Notes under the pieces: generated by a model
What the model was told of the DNA's origin: nothing
Databases searched by the model: none
What the model saw: only the letters and a program-made list of their open reading frames with translations
Translations under genes and position numbers: made by a program
Shown: one piece after another, positions 31,953 to 50,900 of the stretch
Numbering within the stretch: position 1 is the first letter of the stretch
Layout of the letters: the number at the start of each line of letters is the position of its first letter
NCBI RefSeq assembly: GCF_000003815.2
Contig: NC_049981.1
Location: forward strand, 6,849,041-6,913,040
Reading direction: 5' to 3'
DNA length: 64,000 bases
Source: Branchiostoma floridae
Lineage: Eukaryota > Chordata > Leptocardii > Amphioxiformes > Branchiostomatidae

Positions 31953-32014
31953 TTTTGTAGTGTTTGAGTGACAATTGAGAAAGATTATTTGTCTATTTGT
32001 TCAGGTTTGTGAGG

Positions 32015-32138
32015 ATGAGTAGTCCACGCGAGCGGATGTACAAGGTTGTGATGGTGGGAGACTCCGTGGTGGGGAAAACCAGCTTCATCCTCAGGGTCTG
32101 CAGGGACGAGTTCAAACCCAACCTCAACCCTACTATAG
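32015..32138 (+). CDS. Rab exon 1: start and P-loop
   Basis: Encodes residues 1-41, [10 protein letters not shown] followed by the P-loop GDSVVGKTS, and ends in phase 1 at ATAG|GTATG. Confidence 0.92.
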
Positions 32139-35100
32139 GTATGTTTCGATGGTAACTGTTCGTTTCGCCACAATTTTAGTTCGCCAACGTCATTTCACCA
32201 CAAGGCAAGTAGTTTCGTAGCAAGGCACACGTCGTTTCGCAACAAAGCATAAGTCATTTCGCCACATTTGAATTTTGTTTCTCTAGATTGCCTAATAGAA
32301 AATAGAAATCGTATTCCTAACATTATTTACTATCCACTACCTGCAAAAAGCTTAAGGCCACCATTCCATAAGATCTCACTGGGACCTAAATTAGATTTGT
32401 GCAACTCCTACCTTCAGAATAGGAATGTCATGCAACATGTACAAGTATGACTGAAAACAACAAAACACAAAAATGTACTTTTTTCCTTGAAATTCGTTCA
32501 TCACAATTGCACTGGCAAAGTTCAGGTTGCTGCGCGGTCACAACGAGGTCGCTGCCATAGTAGAATACTCCCACGACCGCTGAGCGAACCAAATATTTGA
32601 TCAACGGATTTTTTAGATTATAAATAATTTTTCAACATATTCATCAGTGTTTTGTTCTCTTTTAAATCATGTGTTTAATATTTCCGATCTTGCATCATGT
32701 TCAGAAAGTAAGATGTTTTTGTTTTGACAATAGAAAACATTCATTCCAATTTTGAAATCAATTGTAACACAAATGTATGTAATCCTGGTCTTTGATCGCC
32801 GTCTAGTTGAATGGGGTTTAGGACGTGCCTTTGTGACAATACGAGCCCTTACTAAGGTTTATCGATCTGTTTTTACTGTAAAGCATTTTGTTCATGCTGG
32901 AAGTCAAACAAGCACATAATCCCTGAAGTCCTCGTCACAAAGCATGAAAATCGATCGGCCGACGAGTCTGAGAGCTCTAAATGACATTTTTGGCAGTAAA
33001 ACGTCCGGTCTCCTGTGACGTTTTTGGCGACGCCTCAAGGGCTAGCCTAACAGAATAGTGTGCGTTTGTCAAGACTTCCCAAAATTCTACACGTATGCCT
33101 GGATTTTTTACGCGCGTGCGAAGAAGCACCATCTGTGTATTTCCTAAGGAATTTTATTTAGAGATCCACCGATCTTCGCAAGTTCTCAAGTCCAATATAA
33201 TAGGGTAGATTTTCAAAAAAACAATACTTGATTTTCTGGCAGGTACGACGACCTTTTAGTGATCAAAAAATATTTTAATGTATCGATAGGAAATTAGGAC
33301 AATAGCAATGTGTAAACTGGAGATTCCATCATAATTTGTCTTTAATATCAGTATTATTTGGTGGAGTGAAATCTCTGTACTGTACCGTCAGTTCATTTTT
33401 ATCCGCGGGTGACCTATATCCGTTGTTATATAAAACTGCAATATTTGTTTTAAAATATTGCAGATTAAAACCACTATCCGTACGGTGAAAGACTTGATAT
33501 CTCTATTTCTATACCAATGGATATAGGTTACCCCACGAATAAAGGTCAACCAGCGTTATGTATGCAACCCTATACCCTTATCAATAAGTGTAGGGGTAAC
33601 AGTATAACCCGGCAGTGCACTAAGCAACCACTAGCAACCACAAAATCATTGTAGAGTAAACCTAAGAACAAAAATGGCGAAGACAAAATTTATAAAATCA
33701 CATCACGCGGTAACCCAATAGGAAGCTGTTTTGTCGCTTTGGGCCACCGTAGTTATCATGACGTCTTCTCCACAGGTGTTGACTCTCAGGTAAAGACGTT
33801 TGACGTGGACGGAGACATGGTGGCGCTTCAGATCTGGGACACGGCGGGGCAGGAAAGGTGATTATAATGCATACCTTATCTATCATTCGCCTTCACATCG
33901 TAAACCATTGTTTGTTGTGACTATGCAATTGCATGGTCCATTGAGTTCTCTCCTGTCGGTACAGGGTGACATTGCAGGAATGTAAGTCAGTCATGTACTG
34001 CAACCCGCAAGTGATTATTAGAAAAGCAAGAACCGGCCTGAATTTCAAAAGTCTCCATCAGAATTATTTAGCATCTAGAAATTAAAAGTATTGGAATCAC
34101 TCACTTACTCTGATCATCAAATGTATACAGTTTTAGGCTGAAATAAGTCCTTTTTTAGCATTTATCTATTTCGCATAGTTCACTATGCATATGCGGGAGA
34201 CAGGATTTCTGGGTAATATGTCAAAGGTGAAAGCCCCATGAACGTAAACATTCCGCGATTTTGCAGGCGCCATCGACAGTGTTATGCAAATTAATTAATG
34301 GTCGAGACGAGATTGTTTTTAATACTTCCAATGAGCTTATGTAGACATAATGGTCCTTTACATTTGACATATTACCCAGGATTCCTGTCACCCGCACATT
34401 TGTACTGAACCCTGCGAAAGGGCTGCTAGCTTTTTTTGTCTCACGATCTTCCCCCTCCCCAAACCAGGTTTAGAAGTATCGCTACGTCATACTTCAGACG
34501 GAGCGATGGCGTCATCCTACTGTATGACGTCACGTATGAAGCGTCATTTCTCAATGTTAGAGACTGGATCACAGCTGTGGAAGTAAGTTCCTTCTTTATT
34601 TATTTAATTCTCTCTTTCGTTCCCTCTTGTACAACATGTATGGAGGTTACCCATAAAAACAAATAAAATGTAAGTTTTGCAGAAGATCCCAGCCTATGCT
34701 GCCTTGACACGGTTTGTCTTCTAAGACAGGGGTACATTAGCTATTTTCCCCCTTTATTCAATTAATATGTACAAGATGACTGTATTAGCACAGAAAGTAC
34801 AGTCTCTGAATACTGTACATTACTTTGTCGACACCAAACTTTCAGGGTCTGACAAACTTGAACTTGTTCTGGTAACAAAATGTTCACCGCGTGGCTGCAG
34901 GTCTATGAACTAGTCTATGTCTAAGTCTATGAACTATTTATTATCCGTAATGATAACTTAACTTTACAGGCGTCATCGTAAAAGCTGTGAACATAAAAGT
35001 ACGGTAAAAAAAATCAGGAATTACAATTCTGTTGATGCAAATCGTTATTGATAGGACGGTGCAGGAAAGAAGCTTCCCATCGTGCTGTGCGGCAACAAGA

Positions 35101-36142
35101 CAGACCTGAGACCGACAGCTGAAAAGTACGGAAAGAAAGTCATATCTACTGAAGCGGGGAAGAAATTAGCGAAGGTGCGAGTCTTTTGATTTCACTTCTC
35201 CCCTAAGGAAATTGAAGTTTTTTCTTCCGTTTCTATAATAAGGAGGATGTATCGTGTGTATGTACTTTTGTTTATATATATACATATATGTATGTGTATG
35301 TGTGTGTACATGTCAGTCTCTGTGCATGTATGGTAGTATGTCTTATAAACTAACTGTCCATGTGTTCATACGACTGTGAATACAAATAGATCAAAGTAGC
35401 CTTACTTTTAATCGGGCTTATCCTTCAACTGACACATTAACTCTGCTCTGCCCCTGCTACTCAGGCAGCAGGAGCCATCTTTTTCGAGACGAGTGCGAAG
35501 GAAGGATCCAACATTCAAGAAGCAGTCTTAGGACTTGCAAGGTGGGTGTCAGATATTGTAAACACTCTGTATACATGTACATGATACATATGTAACACTG
35601 TTCTACATACGTACCAGTCTCTACATTGTTTGTCGGTGTAAAACGGAAAAGATACTGATTTTGAATTATAAGTTTGTTCTAATAATTTCGGTTCTCATTT
35701 AGTTTTTGTTATTTTCACAATAGAGCTGATACATTCTTAGTTTGTCAATGTTTGTTTTTCTCTGTCTGAAACGCTAGCTCACCTTTATCCGTGAGGTGCC
35801 CAATATCCGTTTTACTAGGGATATTAAGTATACATGCAGTGGTTTCAAGCTGTAATAAAAGTATGAAAAATAGTACAATTTGAAACCACCGTCCGTCGAC
35901 TTAATATCCCTAAATACATTTTTAGGGCAAAGTTGAAAGGTTACCTCTCGGTTACCTTACGTGTTTAGTTGCAGTTAGCCTTCGGATGCAATAAAAGTCT
36001 TAAACAATTGTATGATAACAGTGCGTTTGATGATTTGCCTTTCAGGAGCCTCAGACAAGAAGAAGACAGAGAATCCAAAGCTTTAGCCTTACAACTCACC
36101 AACCAAGTCGAGCCTGCAGAGAAGCCCAGTCAGTGTTGTTAA
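32015..36142 (+). CDS. Rab-family small GTPase, RASEF/Rab44/CRACR2A-like (six coding exons)
   Basis: Exons 32015-32138, 33776-33857, 34468-34582, 35055-35174, 35465-35541 and 36046-36142 join in frame into 204 residues, all with GT-AG ends. P-loop GDSVVGKT (residues 15-22), switch II WDTAGQE (~61-67), guanine-base motif NKTD (~120), SAK motif ETSAK (~154) and a C-terminal CC for double geranylgeranylation are all present. [20 protein letters not shown] and SFLNVRDW strongly resemble the Rab domain of the EF-hand 'large Rabs' (RASEF, Rab44, CRACR2A), from knowledge of those families. Its likely job is membrane traffic, switching between GTP and GDP forms. Oddity: the usual Phe after IGVD is Ser here. 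The ATG at 32015 is the first in frame after a likely acceptor at 32004, so an upstream coding exon remains possible. No EF-hand exon is visible. Confidence 0.93.
32139..33775 (+). other. Rab intron 1
   Basis: 1,637 bases. Its start (32160-32262) holds four diverged ~27-base units built on GTCATTTCGCCACAA. A family C palindromic MITE sits at 33385-33557. Nothing coding seen. Confidence 0.75.
33385..33557. mobile_element. Palindromic MITE family C copy in Rab intron 1
   Basis: CGGGTGACCTATATCCGTTG at the left pairs with ATGGATATAGGTTACCCC at the right. The inner TTGCAGATTAAAACCAC arm matches other copies. Confidence 0.75.
33776..33857 (+). CDS. Rab exon 2: switch regions
   Basis: Enters in phase 1 and leaves in phase 2. 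Encodes [13 protein letters not shown] and QIWDTAGQE. The acceptor is TTCTCCACAG. Ser replaces the usual Phe of the Rab motif IGVDF. Confidence 0.93.
34169..34419. mobile_element. MITE with ~60-base inverted ends in Rab intron 2
   Basis: TTTCGCATAGTTCACTATGC, a gcgggagacagg stretch and TGGGTAATATGTCAAAGG at the left are mirrored at the right by TTTGACATATTACCCAGGAT, CTGTCACCCGCACATTTG and GCGAAA. It is 251 bases long. It ends only ~50 bases before the exon 3 acceptor. Confidence 0.85.
34468..34582 (+). CDS. Rab exon 3
   Basis: Phase 2 in, phase 0 out. Encodes [20 protein letters not shown] and [13 protein letters not shown]. The donor is GGAA|GTAAGT. Confidence 0.93.
35055..35174 (+). CDS. 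Rab exon 4: guanine-base motif
   Basis: Exactly 40 codons, phase 0 to phase 0. Encodes [20 protein letters not shown] and [14 protein letters not shown] is the guanine-specificity motif. Confidence 0.92.
35465..35541 (+). CDS. Rab exon 5: SAK motif
   Basis: Phase 0 to phase 2. Encodes [20 protein letters not shown]. The acceptor is GCTACTCAG. Confidence 0.93.
35769..35955. mobile_element. Palindromic MITE family C copy in Rab intron 5
   Basis: AACGCTAGCTCACCTTTATC at the left; the inner arms ACTAGGGATATTAAGT and GACTTAATATCCCTAAAT are inverted around GTGGTTTCAAG. The right end is degraded. Confidence 0.7.
36046..36142 (+). CDS. Rab exon 6: C-terminus
   Basis: Enters in phase 2, encodes a polar tail ([15 protein letters not shown]) and ends PSQCC with the stop TAA at 36140-36142. 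The two terminal Cys residues are the expected prenylation site. Confidence 0.92.
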
Positions 36143-38689: not shown

Positions 38690-38941
38690 CTAAACCTTAG
38701 TACTGGTGTCTATTACAGTATCTGGCAAGTTCCCGTTGATCTTGAGACTCCCGGCAGAGCGCGAGTTCTTAAAGTCGCCGGATTTTGAGGAGCTTCGACT
38801 GAAGGATCTCTTCTTGACGTTGTTCTTCTGTTCTTGTTGTTTCCTCCGCCGCTTGGCGAGGGTCGGGAACCAGTTCTCCTCGATGTCGCGCTCTAAGATC
38901 GTCAGGCGTCTTCTGAAGGCCTCGAGAAAGGTCTTGGGAGC
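38690..38941 (-). CDS. Receptor exon e18: cytoplasmic tail and stop
   Basis: Phase 0 in. Starts APKTFLEAFRRRLTILERD, then WFPTLAKRRRKQQEQ, then a Ser/Lys stretch (KKRSFSRSSSKSGDF), and ends VIDTSTKV with TAG at 38690-38692. The acceptor is CTTTTTACCAG. The basic, Ser-rich composition fits an intracellular tail with phosphorylation sites. Confidence 0.92.
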   Translation of the reverse strand, partial: APKTFLEAFRRRLTILERDIEENWFPTLAKRRRKQQEQKNNVKKRSFSRSSSKSGDFKNSRSAGSLKINGNLPDTVIDTSTKV

Positions 38942-41900
38942 CTGGTAAAAAGGAAGAAAATCGTATCTAGGAGGCAAGGTAGCTAGGGTTTATAGATTTC
39001 AAATCTAGAAGCTATGAGATGGAATCCTAATAAGGCCACAATGTTTTGCCATTGAGAAAGGCGCTTTACGACTATTTTCTCACTCTACCCAGGTAAAGAT
39101 CCGTGTATGAGGAGAGTCACACCTCAAACTCGTTAAAGGACCAAACCACGTATCGACAAGAGATGGAGGTATTTTGAGAATCCTGGAGGCTTTACTTCAG
39201 CATAAAATCCGGTTTTGTATCTTGTCCTGCACATGCTATGGTCATGTTTTTTTTGATGGCAGATTGTGTTCAATTATGAATAAGACGTGTTGTAACTTTT
39301 TGTTCCCTTTTAGCTTTTTTTAGCAGCAGGAACTTTTGACATGTCAAAGTAATATTATTATACCTCTTGGTCAGTCTGGTTCACCGCTATTATGCACACG
39401 ATCTACCATTCTAACTTTAGACCTTCACAGGGCATTCCTTTTCCCCTGTTGTATCACTTGCCACATGGTTCCTCTGTAGGAATGGTTAATTGTACAGGTT
39501 TGACCATACATTTTACATTTCACATGTCAAAAAGGATTATATGGTAAAACTACGGAGGCTTTGTTTACATACCTCTGGGTCAGTTTGGTCCACCGCCATC
39601 ATACACGCGACCACCCACTCCACGATCAGCACCACCACGCTGACCGCCATCCCAACATAGATGATGTAGAACACCCCCAGCAGCTTGGACACGTCCATCT
39701 TGTCATTGGTCACCGTCGTGGCCGAGTTCTGGTCGTGACACTCCCCAGTGTACCTGGGGACGAGGAGGGAACGAGAGTCATCTTTCAGAACAGGTCACGT
39801 GACAGCCTTGGTCGGAATCCAGGTCACTCTGGGTTACATTTTAAAAAATCTATAGACCGATCCCGAATGACAATCAAAGTTAGCAGCTAAGCCAATACGA
39901 AAATACTTGTGACCAAAGCCATTATCTGTTGATTTTTCTTAATTTGAGTCATTAGAAATAGAACCAGTCAGTATTGTCCTGAGGAAGGTATTACAACAAA
40001 CACTAGAACTTCTGCTCAGATAGAAACATTTTTGGTTCTGTACGGAAAACGTTTTATTTACTGATTTTGTTTATTTTGGGCTAATTGTATATTTAGTTTC
40101 TCTAATATTAAAGAAAACATGAACACATCGAGAGCAAGAATTGACTTCACCCTTGAAATATTGAAAACCGGCTTAGGCCAAAGATGTGTAAGGGTTATGT
40201 AGAGGTCGAAAAAAATTAATTTGCCCCGGTGACTTAGGCGAAATGGTGTTAATGATTTTAATCTAAGAATTCCAAGAGCGTTTAGAGGTACGGGATCGGT
40301 CTATTGTTTTAAAATAGCTTTGTTCGGAAAGTCGGCGGCTAGGGTTTTTACGCTGAGCTTTCATACAGCTAACTGACAACTGCTGACTAAGGCATGCACT
40401 AGCGGGGTCCCAGAGTGTCACTGGTATTCCGTAACAAAGGCTATCTACTTTTGCCGTTGGACTAATGAACACCACCACTACCTGCACGTTGAATGCAAAT
40501 CGCTAGGGGGTGCTGCAACACTACGACGGGGGCTTTGTTACCAGAAACGGTCTGTCGATCTGTGGAACAAACAATGGCAGCGCGGGATATCATTTCGGAA
40601 TGATGAAATAAAAGATTTTAGATGGAAATAATTAAATGCAAAAAATGAGATATATGCTGGCATTTGACCTTGTTCAAAGTTGATGTATGAGTCCAATTTC
40701 AGCGATTGAAAACAGCTTTCAAGCAAATCTTATTACGAAACACATTTTATTGCGAATTGCTCATTTAAACTGGATGGAAGAACAGCACTGTTTAAAGAAG
40801 TCACCACGACCCACATGAACCCATATTCGTTCACCGGTAACGGAAATAGCTACTTTTCACGGACTTATTAGATTTAAAAAGTGAAATTGAACAAAAATAT
40901 TTCTAAACCCAAACCCAAAATGTCGAGAAATGGATTTGCATAGTTTTTTTTTTTTGCTTCGATAATGTCAATCAACTGTACATTGTCAAAGGTGTGCCCC
41001 CTATGTTTTTACCATGTACTTGCAAGAACTGGTACATACATTTCCAGTGTATAGCACCACAAGAAAAATGTGTCAAATTTGTTTGTGCTAAGAAATGGTG
41101 ATAAAAATGTACTAAAAATCATTTATCGTCCCAAAATGAAATTCACCACGTGCTGTGCCAAGTGTTTGTCCCCCAGACCCAACTGACCGATCCCCAACTT
41201 TCCGACAAGGATCGTTTCCCCGAAGACTTTTCAACGTTTCGACGAAGGCGTGCCACGTGTAGTCCTTCCGCTCTGACTCCAAATCAGGACTTCCGCAGGG
41301 ACCACCGAACCTGGCGGTCAGAGTTAGCAGTACAACATTGCAGAAACTTAGATTAGAAATGTTAATGTAGCGACTTCCGGGAAAGTACAGATCATATTGC
41401 AGCGACTTCCAGTAAACGATAGATTACCTTTACGTTTTAAGATACAAGCTATAAAGGCTTATGTGGTAGAAAAGATACGGTCAGAATCAGTGGCGCAACA
41501 TTGCATTTGCAGGAAATTCCAGAAAATCAGTGATGACATTAGTCATTACATCAACTTCTAGGAAATAATAGATTACAGCATCACACAGTTTCAGTACAAC
41601 TTTAGGCGTACATAGTGGAATTCCGAAAATGTATGGTCAGAATCATTGGTACAGCATTGCAGTAGCTTTCGAGAAAGTGAAAACGTATCAATTTCCAAAA
41701 ATTGCTTTACATGAAAGTTGGTAGATCATAGGCAAATAATACACTTGCTACAAAGCCAACTGCATATTTGAACGGACTTAGATTTGGACTTAGTACCAGA
41801 TCCGCATTTTTGTCGGAATACTACCATGCGGTAGCTGAAGCGTAATCGACACATTAAGCATATAAATAGTGTTTAGGTTCGGCTGTCATGAGAGCATTAA

Positions 41901-44900
41901 TTTTCTGTATTAATCTCGATCCTGAGTCTTCACCCACAGAAAAGCTACATTGATTATATTTTTCCACTATTGCAACAAGACGCTGTGTTGTGTTCATGTG
42001 TACATGTTTAATTGTTTGTCTTATTTACTCGAGCGTTGTCAGGGCATACACGCATCTACAGTAAACTACGAACATACACTTATATCATAAGATATTATTG
42101 GATACTAGTGGCAAGGGAGTTTTCTAGCTGATAATGAAGGCAAAGGGAATTGATAGTAGTCCCGAGTTCAGAACATGTAGTAAATATTGTACAAAATGTA
42201 TCGACCATTATGAATATACAAAGAGCAATCTACAGCTGCAATATGTTGAATGGTTTAAATGGTTTGATTTCATCTGATTTCCTCATGTTACACATCTAGT
42301 AATATTGGTAGAAACGTGGCTGACTCACCATTTTTCTTTCAACTTATCCAAATACCCTGACTCTCTGGCTTGTAGGATAGCGATGGAGAAGGCATCGGTG
42401 TAGGCGGAACCTTTCTGGAGGCCGAATCCGAAGCCGATCTTCCCGAACAGACGGCCGACTGTGCGGAGGTTACAAGGAGGCTGTTTGACGACATAGTCCA
42501 GCACGGCGCTGTCCCAGATAAACGCGTACCTCTCCTCACGCGCTTTTTCTATGCCGTCTGGTACCAATAAAGGGGCATAAATGAACGTACGAATTAAGCT
42601 AAACATACATCATTTACTCTCTCTGCTAAGAGCTATCTACTACTAAAGTAACAGGACAATTGCATGTCTAGAACTCGAGGTATCAAATTAGGAAGTTACG
42701 CTGCAGTACTATAACAAGCCCCTAGCTATAGGCAGCCCAAAACTTCCAGTTCTTTTAAAATTCACGCAACGTATTCACCATACGGTGACATTGTTTGGGA
42801 CATCAGGATTCACACTTTGACCTTTGACCCTGTCCTTTACAAACAAAGTATAAACACGTTCATGTTTCTGAGTACGCATGTGCAGCGACAAGAATTACGG
42901 TTGATATGTCACAGTAAAGATAAATGAGACAAATCACGCCAGAAATTTGTTGTGCAAATCAACACAAAGGTCTAATAGCTAAAGCGGGTCCTTAGGGCTA
43001 TATTGGAGGGTTGATATTTTTCGTATTTATCTTGGTCTCTCTTAACTTCGAATACATTTTGAAAAGCTGCTACATTATTTAAAGCAAAGCCGAAATACAA
43101 CTCGCAGTAAGATTTCAAAGACGTACCTTCGAAGGTCATAGGTTAAATGCCTGATTATTCAAATAGCCTTACCTCGTGAGCTCATTGTCAGAGTGCTGTG
43201 AACCTTCATGTAGCGAGCCATGGTCTCGAATGTGTGGATACTGGATGACTCAAAGAACGATAGGGGCTGACTGTTTTGTACCGTCCCATACTGGACGAGT
43301 TTCTGTGGGTGTACATACATTAAAGAATTGTGTAGACAATATAAAAATCAACCATATTAATAGATTTTTTTTCAATACAGGTACCTGCGGACATTATATT
43401 CGGGACAACAAAATGTCATAATTCACGTCTCTCTTGACGCAAATGTACAGTACGTCATTTAGTTGTAAAGTACGTGTCTTCAGTCACGGACTACCTTAAG
43501 ATATACAAGCTTAGGATTGTCGCCATTGTAAGATACATGCTATAACATAGATATAGATATCATGAAGATATGATCCATTTTAGGATGATGTCCCAATATA
43601 GGTTATGATGTTAACCAATGGTCTTACGTTACATGCTATTTCTAACTGGAAATGTATCTTCTAATGATTTAATATTTCTGACATGTACTTTTCACGAACA
43701 AGCTAACAATCCGTCACCTCTAAAATGTAAAACGGGGAAAATGTTGTCCCAGATAGATATATAGTCTAAATGCCAGACCCTCGTGCGGGGTCTAACTAAG
43801 GAGGCCGATTGTTTAATTTTCTTATGGGCATGTTGGCCCTGGAGCCAAGGAGTTGGCTTGTGTAGGGCCTCTGAACAACCTGGCATCCAGGCTAAAGCAA
43901 GTAACAACATGTGCGTTAGACGTGAACCCACCTGAGATACGAGATCCTCTACAGAGTTGATGTCCGTGTCCATCCGGGAGACGGTGAGAAAGGCCGCCAG
44001 GTTAGCCGTGTACGTGGCGACAATGATGACTGTCACCAGCCACCACAGGGATGCAGTGATCCGACCTGCGGGATACACACACACACAGTCAGGAACAAAT
44101 GTCTCAGTAGGCGGAATCCTTTTAGTATATCTACCCTGATGATATCTATAGCTATTATAGCAATGTCGTGTCTTGGATCAACATTTAAAGGATCATCGTA
44201 CATACGGTGTTATCATTGCTATTATCAGGTAAGTATAGGTCATGGGTGAAAACCTTGAACGTATACTATAGGTCAAAGGTGACAAACCTGATGACCATAG
44301 GGTTTACACTGTACTGTGCTTGTCTTACTAGTATATAGAAAACAATTGTTCAGATACGGGTTCATTGGAATGTGTAGAAGCATATCGACAGTACGTTTAT
44401 AAAGTATAGGTTGAGACAATGGTAAAATAAGAATGCATTTGCGTGATAAAAAATGACATAATGTGCAAATTAGGGCAAAAAAGGCAAAAACTGCTTGTAC
44501 TTGCAAGACCGACCAAGTTCTATATTCCAGTGTGTACGTGCACACATGTGTCATGACTACTATAAAGAAGCAAACTGATACTAGTGTTTCGCCGACTGAC
44601 AGATGTGCGTTTTTAGTGAGACATGATAGTTGACCCACTTACCTGGTCCGCTCTTTGGCAAAATGTCGCCTCCTTGGAATAGCAGAGAGGCCACGGCAAA
44701 GTACAGAGCGTTGTTCAGACTCATCATCCCGATCATTTCCTTTTTCTTCTCTTTTATCTCTGCCGGTTTTTCTTCCTCTGCTAACAAGGTCGGCCTGTAT
44801 GAATGTAAAACAAACGTTTACTAACCTGGCGTACTTCTTGGGTACACATCCCCTCCTTGTTGAAGCAGGGAGGCCACCGCGAAGAACAAGGCGTTACCCA

Positions 44901-47900
44901 AACTCATCATTCCGATCATTTCTTCCTTCTTTTCTTGGATCTCTTCGGGATCTTCCTCCTCTTCTAATAACTCAGGCCTGCAAGTGAGAGACATGTCGCA
45001 AGATGGCGTTCGTGACCCGTGCTACCCTGGGGACCTGCTCGGTAAGCTTAAAGATGGTTGTAAGTACAGAATTCTTACATGACCTATGGTCTTATTTTTT
45101 TTGTCTCGACTAGCCTTTCAAAATCAATCCAACATCAACAATATTTCTTTGTAAATACCAACTGAATCTAACGTCTATCCGAAACATGTATCTAATATGT
45201 ATTAGTAAGTAGTCAGATGTAAGTACATTGCATTAGCAGTGAAACACACACCTTAGACCATCAAAATCTGTGCACGACGTTTCTTTGTTAACACATGGTA
45301 GCAATTGGCACATAATCGTCAGCAAGCCATTACCAAATTATGTAACACAAATAACACAGTAGCGACACCATATGTACACTGGTGCCCCAAAACTATCAAC
45401 ATTCATGCGTTACCTTTTGTTTCGGAAACCTTGGTTATGCAGAATCCTCAACTAGCCATTAACAAAAACATGGTTGTTACTGAAAAACATACTTACTCTT
45501 CCTCCTGGACGAAGTGTCCATGGTAGCCTGACGGACTCAACTTGTTCACCAACGAGATGAAGAAGGAGACCGCCAGCGTGCTGCACAGGACATGAAATAC
45601 TTTCTATAAAAACATCTAGACATCTACAGTTCACTGTAAAAAGTGTCTCGGAAGCAAAAACCAGTCAGATGACCGATAAAACATTTTTTCTATGCGGACA
45701 AACGGTCAACATGTGAACAGGATTTCTAAAGCGAAAATTGTTTTGCCATGTTGGTAGATCATAAGATATCGGAGTTTTCTTTTCCACGACAAGCTCTAGC
45801 CTTAAAGCACAGGCATACATCGGCTACAAATAGCGACGAGAAGTAGCACTTTAATTAGAACCTCTGAGGCAGATGTGCGAAAGGCAAAGAAACACTAGAA
45901 AGGCAACATTTTTGAAAAAAATGCAGAATGTGGGCGAAGGGAAAAGAAAGCAAAAATCGGAATAAAAGAAGCATCAAGAAAGGCAACATTTTCGCCAAAA
46001 GGCAGCAAAAAAAAAATTAAAAAATATTATCTATCCACTTATTCGATCCCGGAGCGTTGGTTTCCCACGCATGAATAATACCACTAAGCTAGTGCTACAA
46101 AATGTCACAGTAGGACGTTTTAACAGATATACAAATGTATTGCGTAGCTTGAACACGTCCGTTCACCGTTGAATTTGCAAGATTCCAAGGTCCAATTTTC
46201 TGAAGATAATGTTTTTGTGTGAAAATTTATCAGTCTCGTTCATTCCATGGCCGGCAACATCTTCCTTGAGCGCCTGTTTGGTCGTCTCAGCTGCTATAGT
46301 ATTATCAAACTGCATGCCGAATGCCATTTTGTGTTCTGTGCGTTGATTTGTTCACCTCTGCGTACACCCGAGACAGTCCGCGACTTTATTCCAATCAAAA
46401 AGCTGGAAACAAGAGTATATGTTTACAGCTTCCATTTTTCTGAGTTCCGATTGGCTATTATTAAACTCGATGCCGATTGTGTTCTGTGTGTTGATAGGTT
46501 CACCTCTGACGTAAAACCGAGAAAGTGAGACTGTAAGCCAATCAAAAAGCTTGAAACGTGGAGTACATGTTTACAGCTTCCATTTTTTCTGACTTCCGGG
46601 TGGAATATGCAAATATCTGAGGAAAAACTAAATGTGTTGCTTCGCCCACATAAAAAGCAGGTAAGACGTTACTGGTTGTGTGTGGAACTCAACAATATCC
46701 CATGATTCTTAATACTTCTGTAGATATGGGAAGGTCCTTCTGTAGAGGTCCTTCTGTATACGTAGAGGTGGTCACTAGTAAAGGTTTAACTATATATCTT
46801 TGTCCAGGTGATCGTTATGTAGACGTAGTCACTACTGCAGGTTTGACTGTAAATCAATGGTAAGGTGGTGCTTATGTACAGGTAACTACTAGTTCAGGTT
46901 TGACTGTACAGCAATGCCCAGGTGGTCGTTATGTAGAGGTGGTCACTAGTGCAGATTTGACTGTATATCAATATATAGGTGGTCCTTATGTACAGGTGGT
47001 CACTTGTACATGTTTGACTGTATACCTATGGCCATTTGTTCCTTATGTAGAAGTGCTTTTTGGTACACGTTTGACTGTTGTCATTATTTAGATTTAGTCA
47101 ATTACACAGGTGTGCTCGGTTTACCTTAGGAGAATGAAGAGCCACAGATTGGGTTCGAAGACGTCTAAGAACTTGAACGGACGATCCTCCTTCTCTATCT
47201 GGTTACTGAGCACGAACGTCAGCCCGATGTCGATGTACGGTTTGGTGAAGTCGATGTCCTGCTCCCGCTCGTAGCTGATGGTGAACGATGCAGCCGCGAC
47301 GTCAGCTTTCTGGGAAAGGCAAAAAAATAACGTTTATAAAACTTATATTCGTATGGTCTCCAGCATTTGAAATCGATAGTAACAATAAAACATTGTCAAG
47401 TCAGAAAAGGAAGGCATGTACACCTGTGCCAGGTATGCTTGAAAAAAAACTTGTCTTGCTGATCCCGTATATATACGAGATGCACATACATGGTCCCCCT
47501 ATGTGGGTCAAATATTTGTATGTGTTTGTGGCATTTCTCACTTAAATGCTGCATTCCGCAGTAACGCGCAACAATTAGGAAGGTGAATCTGCAGTAGCAG
47601 TACAAAATAGGTCAAGTTTTACTGATCTTAAGCTACTAATGAACCAGCTATGGGAAGTTGAATACTCAGTAGGATAAGGGTTAAGGAAAAGTTAGACTAA
47701 AACCATTAATGCATTTGAGGTTGAGGGTGCTCGAGAAGTATAAGAATCGGTGCCTAGCTCTTTAACAAAATAATGCAGGAGAAATGTAATTTCCAAACAC
47801 CTGGGCTCCACATTACCATGACTAGCTACTGACAACGCGTCGAGAAGCCAGTCAAGGAATAAGTTTTTCCTTCAGTAAAAAGAAATGATGATAATCCAGT

Positions 47901-50900
47901 GGGAATGTTTACCTTAACGACAAGGTCTCGCACCATCCCGTTCCACTTCCCTGTGACCGGATCCCTCGCACCGAAGTTCTTATCCTCCACCATGTACATC
48001 TCGTACTTAAACCCCAGGTGTTTACTGAAGTGTTCCAGCATATCCTTACAAAACCCTGTATACAAACAAGCAAACAAATAAATAAATAAATTAATATATT
48101 TGATACTTTATCAAGTCCATTTGCTAACAAACAAATTTCTAAGCAACTCATCTTCCAGGACATAAAGATACAAACATAAAACAATATCAAAGTTGTACAC
48201 ACAATGTTCACAGGCTACATATATCTACTGATTTATATGTCGTAGCTGCTCCAAAAACTTGCACATAGAAGCTTAATCATGAAAATGTATGTTATTAGGC
48301 TGTCTTTTCCATATAGAGATGAAATTGATGGTCAGTTCAAACGGTTTTCATACAGGCATCAGAGTATTCAAAACTTGACCTTTCGAATGTGACCTCAAAA
48401 GGTGAGGTCCCTGATGGCCGCGATAATAGCACTGTACTGCACTCCATTATATATACTTTGCTATTATGAGATACGTGTTCGAAACGAATATGTAGAGACG
48501 TGACGGTCACACGTTTTTTTTATAGAAACAGGGGCATAATGTACGACAAAGGACATTCTGTGGAAATTTCTGGAAATATATTTAGTATTGTGACATCAAT
48601 CTCATAATCATATCAAAGAAGGGGCGAATGTCTACTAGACAGACACGTACCATAAAATCTGTCGTTCCCATTTCTTGGCCGCCCGTGCTCGTCCTTCTCG
48701 CTGTAGAAGATGAAGGGGGGTTCTTCTATCGTCACGACCCTCAGGGTCCTGTTCATCAGATCGCTGACGTAATCCACCACACTGTCCGCCCCGCCCATGA
48801 ACCGTACGGGCGGGTTGTGCATGATCAGCCTCGTGTCCTCGCTCCAACTGCCAACCTACAGAACAATCAGTCACAGTTACATTTGGCATTCAACGTTCTC
48901 GCCTCCTCGACAGACTTGATACTTTCAATATCCCTGTGTTAAATGTCAAAAAGTTATCTTGTATTTCTTTTGTTAACTTATTACAGTAAAGTTAACCCTT
49001 GCTAACGTTAAAAATCAACGCATAATTTCTTGTCATATCTCGGCAACAGCTACTTGAAACCAAACGTTTTCAGAACCCTCAAGTGCTCCGATCCCCGTAT
49101 CCATACATATTACATTTTCCTAAAACTTTACCAGCCTCATGCCTTCGCTCCAACAGCCGACCTAACAAAAATACCTCGTGCCACTGCAAAATATTCCCAT
49201 GTCCATTTTACACATATTACGTTCTCCACTCTTGCATAGCATTTGGGAACAAATGTGGACCTGAGCCAACACAGTCTGACGGAACGCATTTGAACCCTAG
49301 CTCACCAACACAAACAGACTGACTGAAAACAATAGATACTTTTTCACTGAGGTCATAAGGCACACCACAGCAAACAAAGAAAGAAAGCTACATTTAACAA
49401 CTTCAGGCACAGGAGGGGTAACCACAACTTCTATCTTCAAAGATTCTAATATTTCAATTTTACATAAGCTCTGTGACCTTATAAATAGTATATCAGATGA
49501 TATATTAGTATCAGCAGCACGCCTAGGACTGTTCATTCATGATGGGCGCCAAATATAGGCTTTACTAAACGCTCTACAAAGAAGGCTTTAAAAGTAGTGC
49601 TATAAGATAGAAACAAAGCTGCGAAAGAGGAACGCCATACATAAAGGATGACATGCAATTCATTACCACAATCTATATTTAATTCGTAAGTCAGCCCCTG
49701 GTCTGAGAGGAGCGTAGTACACGTAAAAGCCCTCCTTTAGAGGATTACAGAGTCCATTACAGTCTTTTATTTCCAGCTCGTCAGTCATAAAGATGGATTT
49801 CTATGTCCTTCGGGTTATTCTGAAATGCTTAACGTAAAACAGAGCCCAGGATTGGTGCATTGACATCCGATGAAGCGAGGTTTGTAAGATATGGATAAGT
49901 TTTTTATTGCAGAGGATTTATTGTACCGTAAGCGAGATGGAAGACGGAGCGTGTCGAATGGAAATTCTTGCAAAATCTGCTTAAAGTACTTTTTCCTACA
50001 CGTGTAGGGCCCGCCAAGTGGGCAAATATGATTTTATATGTATGAATCTCAGACGCATTCTTCACAGTCAGATAATACTGTAATTCCTCACGTCATTATC
50101 TAGGCTTTGACGTTCTATACTTCTTATCTTCATACTTGCAAATCAGAAGGAAGAAGCTTTGCTCGTAGTCTTTTACTAGATCACTTTAAACCTGTTGGTC
50201 TACAAGTGTTTTGGTACAAACATAGATCCAATAGATCCCCGATTATTCATGATGTACCTCTCAGCATGTAAACAGGTATTACATGTAGTACATGCCATGA
50301 GTTAGCAAACAAACATAAGGCAATGCCCTCGAAGTCGTATTTACCAAAGTCTTGATCTTTAATTTTTTTTTTTTGAAAAAACAAAACATTAATCATATCA
50401 GCTCATGAATATAATTTTCTATTAAATGGCTGATCCAGATACTTAAGATGGATAAAGATTCAAGAAATGAATTAAGGCGAAGAAAAACTCAATAAACACT
50501 TTAGACTCTCCGGGAAGACAAAATGACTGAAGACTGTGAATTCAACTCGGCGCAACATCCTTGTCATTTCGGCCGGGATAGGGTACGGTATTGGGCCGAG
50601 TTGGTATGATTAGTCATAGGCCGAGTTGGTAAAGGGCCGAAACGTCAAATATTTATTTCTTAGAAATTGGAGGTGAATTTTATCTTTTTACTTGCAAATC
50701 AGAAACGTGTCGAATTGGATTGTTTTAAACCTGTCTACTAAAGTTTGATATATACTCAGACAAAACCGACTTAATCCTCGATTATGAAATGTATCTATGA
50801 TACCCGCAGCATGTGAACAGGTACTTATAAAAAGCATAACTGTAATCTTTCAGTAAGAACATTAGTTGACGTCTATTGTTCAAATATCATATGTAGCTTG

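Follow-up and report, generated by a model that had tools for sequence, protein, structure and literature searches.

In this study, a 64,000-nucleotide stretch of the Branchiostoma floridae genome (contig NC_049981.1, positions 6,849,041 to 6,913,040, hereafter "the window") was analyzed for a gene of the ionotropic glutamate receptor family lying on its minus strand. We conclude, with a probability of about 0.8, that this is a single Epsilon-type gene, most likely the cephalochordate GluE1, with a glycine-type ligand pocket and a duplicated pore exon, the two copies of which would be used in a mutually exclusive way to give either a glutamine or a phenylalanine pore. The residue that differs, at the Q/R site (also called Q/R/N site), is a classic case of RNA-level control over one residue of an ion channel, a control known as RNA editing. 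If our reading is true, an exon switch at this residue in a non-vertebrate chordate would represent a second and unrelated solution, with splicing in place of editing.

The gene model comprises 11 minus-strand exons, 10 per isoform, and covers the ligand-binding, channel and tail parts of the receptor (Table 1). Joined with either pore exon alone, it remains open over 564 amino acids down to the stop codon, a count that leaves out the amino-terminal domain and the start codon; upstream of the modelled part, amino-terminal-domain exons were seen as fragments only. Domains PF10613 and PF00060 are both above the Pfam cut-off in both isoforms, and the M3 gate motif TYTANLAAF is one residue away from the SYTANLAAF of ionotropic glutamate receptors. 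Judged from its sequence, the gene is thus of the ionotropic glutamate receptor type, and intact.

An earlier sequence-only reading of the window had described two adjacent homologous exons for the M1-M2 linker and pore loop (hereafter exons Q and F), both 152 nucleotides long, entered in phase 2 and left in phase 1, one encoding SLLQQGGD and the other SLLFQGGD, and all of this was found again on the sequence. They lie between the M1 and M3 exons, and each consists of 1 + 150 + 1 nucleotides. Alignment with AMPA and kainate receptor structures (GluA3, GluK2) also bears out the proposal that the first glutamine of QQG is the Q/R site, occupied by phenylalanine in the other exon. The two exons do swap this residue, as had been claimed, yet they do not swap it alone: 13 of the 50 residues differ, linker included, and the net charge of the M1-M2 linker goes from -9 per subunit with exon Q to -1 with exon F.

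At the nucleotide level, the two exons are identical at 108 of 152 positions, and the 44 differences distribute as 10, 9 and 25 over the first, second and third codon positions. The same amino acid is encoded in 37 of the 50 whole codons, by a different codon in 18 of these. The proportion of differences is 0.758 at synonymous sites (pS), which is saturation, and 0.172 at replacement sites (pN). Because synonymous sites are saturated and replacement sites are not, both exons look old and constrained. This bears on two other ways of explaining the pair. An assembly artefact or a recent copying error might be invoked, as a single assembly stands behind the sequence, but 44 differences out of 152 in a coding-type pattern, and the single occurrence of each exon among the scored matches across the whole genome, leave practically no room for it. 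That only one exon is in use now, the other being the relic of an old duplication, is also very unlikely. The exon Q donor does appear the weaker by eye, but a relic so old should have decayed, whereas neither exon has a stop or a frameshift, both have kept their splice sites, and replacement sites are conserved against saturated synonymous ones; moreover, glutamine and phenylalanine have both been reported for GluE1 of another species (PMC6307864, PMC12226733; see below).

The mutually exclusive use of the exons, also put forward in the sequence-only reading, is strongly supported by the frame logic, the intron between them, their intact splice sites and the constraint on both copies. An AG acceptor and a GT donor border each exon. 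The frame is lost when both exons are joined or both skipped, and a retained intron between them would place two stops, TAG TAA, in frame right where exon Q ends. This intron is 31 nucleotides long, as against 519 to 2575 nucleotides for the nine other introns listed for the gene, and 31 nucleotides is probably below the minimum intron length for the spliceosome. Within it, some 22-23 nucleotides from the exon F acceptor, the string TAGTAAAC could serve as branch point for exon F, and it overlaps the exon Q donor. Given the shortness of the intron and this overlap, steric exclusion would be the simplest mechanism: with the exon Q donor lying over the branch-point region of exon F, the spliceosome would be unable to use both, and the frameshift of the double-in and double-out products would be a further barrier. 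Judged by eye, exon F has a donor (CAG gtaagt) closer to consensus than that of exon Q (CAG gttagt), so our guess is that splicing may use exon F by default and exon Q under regulation. Folding of 44600-45000, examined for an RNA structure that might control which exon is used, was no stronger than that of shuffled sequences (z = -0.17). A 16-nucleotide inverted repeat (88%) connects positions 44821-44836, at the exon Q donor, with 43990-44005, in the M3 exon; it could mask the donor or be due to chance.

Across the genome, a Pfam search gave 102 matches and a search with an M3 query 59. A scan for pore exons covered 58 loci, corresponding to 48 distinct places and to part of the 102 Pfam matches; many of these loci extend only some 1.5 kb beyond M3. 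A pore-like match of at least 8 bits was found in 36 of the 48 places and none in the 12 others; some of the matches are partial or weak, with best scores as low as about 11 bits. At least 2 of the 36 places carry a tandem pair, a lower bound: the window gene and a locus named L033, of kainate type as judged from its pore and M3 sequences. In whole-genome pore-exon searches that scored the best candidates only, a third adjacent pair was not seen. At L033 the logic of the frame is similar, each exon alone being open from M1 through M3, while both, neither or a retained intron give an out-of-frame or stopped product. Divergence within this pair is high (pS 0.795, pN 0.304, 23 of 46 aligned residues identical), and both exons have glutamine at the Q/R site, within QQGSD and QQGSE. 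From these comparisons, pore exons are duplicated independently in two receptor genes of this genome.

In a tree built from ten short peptides of the pore, exons Q and F come out as sisters (support 100/97), the sole well-supported of its 7 inner branches; support for joining them to the one glutamine exon of the paralogue C2 is weak (75/86). The duplication therefore most likely postdates the split of this gene from its paralogues, and glutamine is likely the ancestral residue, phenylalanine the derived one. The pore exon would have been duplicated in tandem, after which the copies would have come to be spliced as mutually exclusive alternatives.

The L033 pair also shows that a pore exon pair can persist without any change at the Q/R site. 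Together with the 13 differing residues and the charge shift from -9 to -1, this lends some weight to an explanation in which the exons are mutually exclusive but the Q/R change is incidental, selection acting on the pore helix or the linker, for instance through assembly, trafficking or partners inside the cell, with little difference in conductance. We find it unlikely, though not negligible, as the close paralogues read have kept glutamine at the site, and Ca2+ permeation depends on the Q/R/N residue in GluA2 as well as in an Epsilon receptor (PMC12226733).

As to the receptor itself, the sequence-only reading had rightly seen a glutamate receptor with a swapped Q/R residue, but had framed it by reference to AMPA and kainate receptors, whereas the pocket residues point to an Epsilon receptor of the glycine type. 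With numbering assigned through alignment to GluA3 and GluK2, the pocket contains Ser653, Pro655, Trp704, Asp705 and Phe732. An AMPA or kainate identity is rejected on Ser653 and Pro655, found instead of the glutamate-type Gly653 and Thr655. According to the relevant passages of PMC12226733, Ser653, a hydrophobic residue at 655 (proline included) and Phe732 form the glycine/D-serine set, and those of PMC6307864 predict glycine for GluE1 from Ser653 and Trp704; by these rules the window gene has a GluE1-type glycine set (Ser653, hydrophobic 655, Phe732, Trp704 and an acidic 705). The Phi class is disfavoured, as the gene has a glutamine exon and PMC6307864, in its statements on that class, reports no glutamine at 586. 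Aligned with GluA3 and GluK2, the gene has the longer M1-M2 linker, which is compatible with the insertion that PMC6307864 describes in this loop of Epsilon proteins but is not diagnostic.

Among 11 loci examined and the window gene, the combination Ser653/Pro655/Trp704/Asp705 occurs in four genes: the window gene, C2, C14 and C7. C2 is the nearest paralogue by M3 (78%) and has one pore exon, with glutamine. Both C2 and C7 have glutamine at the Q/R site and glutamate four residues on (+4), whereas a search of the C14 locus yielded no pore exon. Of the three genes with a known pore exon, the window gene alone has aspartate at +4. As the window gene could yield glutamine or phenylalanine, with aspartate at +4 in both cases, and given the residues of its paralogues, it is the best GluE1 candidate, and we consider it most likely that it is the Epsilon receptor GluE1.

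Two publications, as far as their statements on the pore go, disagree on the GluE1 of B. lanceolatum. It has glutamine and aspartate at 586/590 according to PMC6307864 (2018), and is said to bear phenylalanine at the Q/R/N site in PMC12226733 (2025). The first paper also reports Ser653 and Trp704, gating by glycine, and homomers that rectify strongly inwardly. The window gene resembles this receptor in Ser653, Trp704, the aspartate at +4 and the residue of the Q/R/N site, glutamine for the first paper and phenylalanine for the second. Its exon pair sets it apart from GluE1 as published, for which no splice variant was found: the main text of PMC6307864 has 0 occurrences of the string "splic". 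The pair would explain the disagreement and may settle it, each paper having perhaps seen one isoform, and the strong rectification of the homomers fits either one.

What the two pores might do can be predicted from published mutants. In the sections of PMC12226733 dealing with them, replacing the Q/R/N serine of GluE1alphaA by glutamine raises Ca2+ permeation about tenfold, the change from glutamine to serine in GluA2 lowers it, and removal of the aspartate at +4 abolishes the enhanced polyamine block; citing earlier GluR6 mutants, the same paper expects phenylalanine to keep a strong polyamine block. On these data, the prediction is that the phenylalanine isoform rectifies and passes less Ca2+. 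The glutamine isoform, with the Q/R/N residue of the close paralogues, would be the Ca2+-permeable, polyamine-blocked form. The phenylalanine isoform, having no side-chain carbonyl oxygen at this place, would carry less Ca2+, and the aspartate at +4, present in both isoforms, would preserve polyamine block and rectification. The shift in linker charge, on the cytoplasmic side, may have an effect at the inner mouth, on ions or on interacting partners, and mixed subunits, if they occur, would make graded pores possible. More tentatively, and at somewhat less than even odds, a broader proposal can be made: a chordate glycine-type Epsilon receptor would set its Q/R/N residue by mutually exclusive exons, the phenylalanine form keeping block and losing Ca2+ permeation, two properties that Q/R editing in vertebrates abolishes jointly; ionotropic glutamate receptors would have diversified their pores repeatedly through exon swapping, in an Epsilon and in a kainate gene; and the published GluE1 recordings would be those of one of two natural channels.

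Several points weigh against our reading. AMPA and kainate chains rank first among solved structures by phmmer score, and the orthology to GluE1 is drawn from residue signatures and from the statements of two papers. If one of the two papers misread FQG, that would account for their disagreement about as simply as the exon pair may do. The effect of phenylalanine on Ca2+ is extrapolated from data on glutamine, serine and asparagine. Finally, aromatic residues are found by eye at the Q/R site of other loci, tryptophan in L021 and L027 and tyrosine in L035, so that phenylalanine need not be a special adaptation. An aromatic residue at this site is therefore not unique to the window gene; phenylalanine itself was seen, again by eye, only there among the scanned loci.

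The glutamine codon of exon Q is CAA, which A-to-I editing would cause to be read as CGA, arginine, giving three pore states in all. There is very little to recommend this possibility: an ungapped search of 43900-45620 (minimum 14 nucleotides) returned one inverted pair, of 16 nucleotides, whose near arm lies about 24 nucleotides downstream of the codon and excludes it, although imperfect or distant complements would escape such a search, and the fold of 44600-45000 is not stronger than that of shuffles, as mentioned above. In other loci, arginine or lysine appears by eye to be genomically encoded at the Q/R site (L012, L013, L019 and L023, listed with the tryptophan and tyrosine loci).

The sequence-only reading had known of no described receptor that swaps the Q/R residue by exon choice. 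Nor did the open-licence literature searched show us any ionotropic glutamate receptor with paired pore exons, which is weak evidence of absence. Alternative pores by exon choice are already known. In invertebrates, mutually exclusive exons 15a/15b of NALCN (and an exon 31 pair) swap a selectivity-filter residue, as described in the passages of PMC3557258 on these exons, which state the same of exon choice at the filter of T-type cation channels; the likeness lies in two mutually exclusive exons changing a filter residue in the pore of a cation channel. NALCN differs in being a four-domain leak channel that is not ligand-gated, with one of its four pore loops changed, whereas in a glutamate receptor tetramer up to all four could be. 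According to PMC3557258, NALCN of amphioxus comes with a single type of pore. What would be new here is the occurrence in a glutamate receptor. Within this family, AMPA receptor flip/flop also involves mutually exclusive exons, but these alter the dimer interface of the ligand-binding domain and the S2-M4 linker, outside the pore (PMC8257547, on flip/flop). Q/R editing of GluA2, GluK1 and GluK2 acts in the RNA on this very pore residue and thereby alters Ca2+ permeability (PMC8257547, on editing); it replaces glutamine by arginine through deamination, whereas here the choice of exon would give glutamine or phenylalanine and alter 12 other residues.

Table 1. Exons of the receptor gene and the two tandem pore exon pairs. 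Positions are those of the window unless a contig is given.
Feature	Position	Strand	Remarks	Evidence
S1a, ligand-binding domain	48651..48855	-		exon model, Pfam
S1b, ligand-binding domain	47913..48055	-		exon model, Pfam
S1c, ligand-binding domain	47125..47309	-	ligand arginine (SYEREQ); runs into M1	exon model, alignment
M1 exon	45497..45580	-	donor GA gtaagt (cut after GA), phase 2, joins either pore exon	
Pore exon Q	44826..44977	-	M1-M2 linker, pore helix, pore loop SLLQQGGD; Q/R-site codon CAA (Gln)	
Intron between pore exons	44795..44825	-	31 nucleotides; TAG TAA at once on retention; probably too short for splicing	
Pore exon F	44643..44794	-	homologous copy, SLLFQGGD; Q/R-site codon TTC (Phe)	
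M3 exon	43932..44065	-	gate motif TYTANLAAF; acceptor of phase 1, fits both pore exons	
S2a, ligand-binding domain	43173..43302	-	YGTVQNSQP (Ser at 653, Pro at 655)	
S2b, ligand-binding domain	42329..42557	-	FIWDS (Trp 704, Asp 705); Phe at 732	
M4 exon	39573..39753	-		
Last coding exon	38690..38941	-	cytoplasmic tail and stop	
L033 tandem pore exons	contig C9 3561538-3561682 and 3561741-3561879 (L033 5533-5677, 5736-5874)		145 and 139 nucleotides, 58-nucleotide intron	

Other repeated segments were met among the receptor loci. In L048, another Epsilon-like gene, part of the S1 exon (KADM..VTDLTITAEREEDVDFTLP) is present twice in tandem, at about 191-262 and from 338. On contig C17, positions 17794490-17794679, two adjacent and slightly overlapping M3 matches differ in frame, which may reflect a frameshift or an incomplete tandem copy. 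A cluster of at least 7 receptor loci occupies 11.08-11.15 Mb of contig C9, with pore exons 88-97% identical to the VQLGPEF query. Finally, near the receptor gene, the plus strand of the window holds open frames at 31979-35600 that resemble what we take to be a Rab-type small GTPase.

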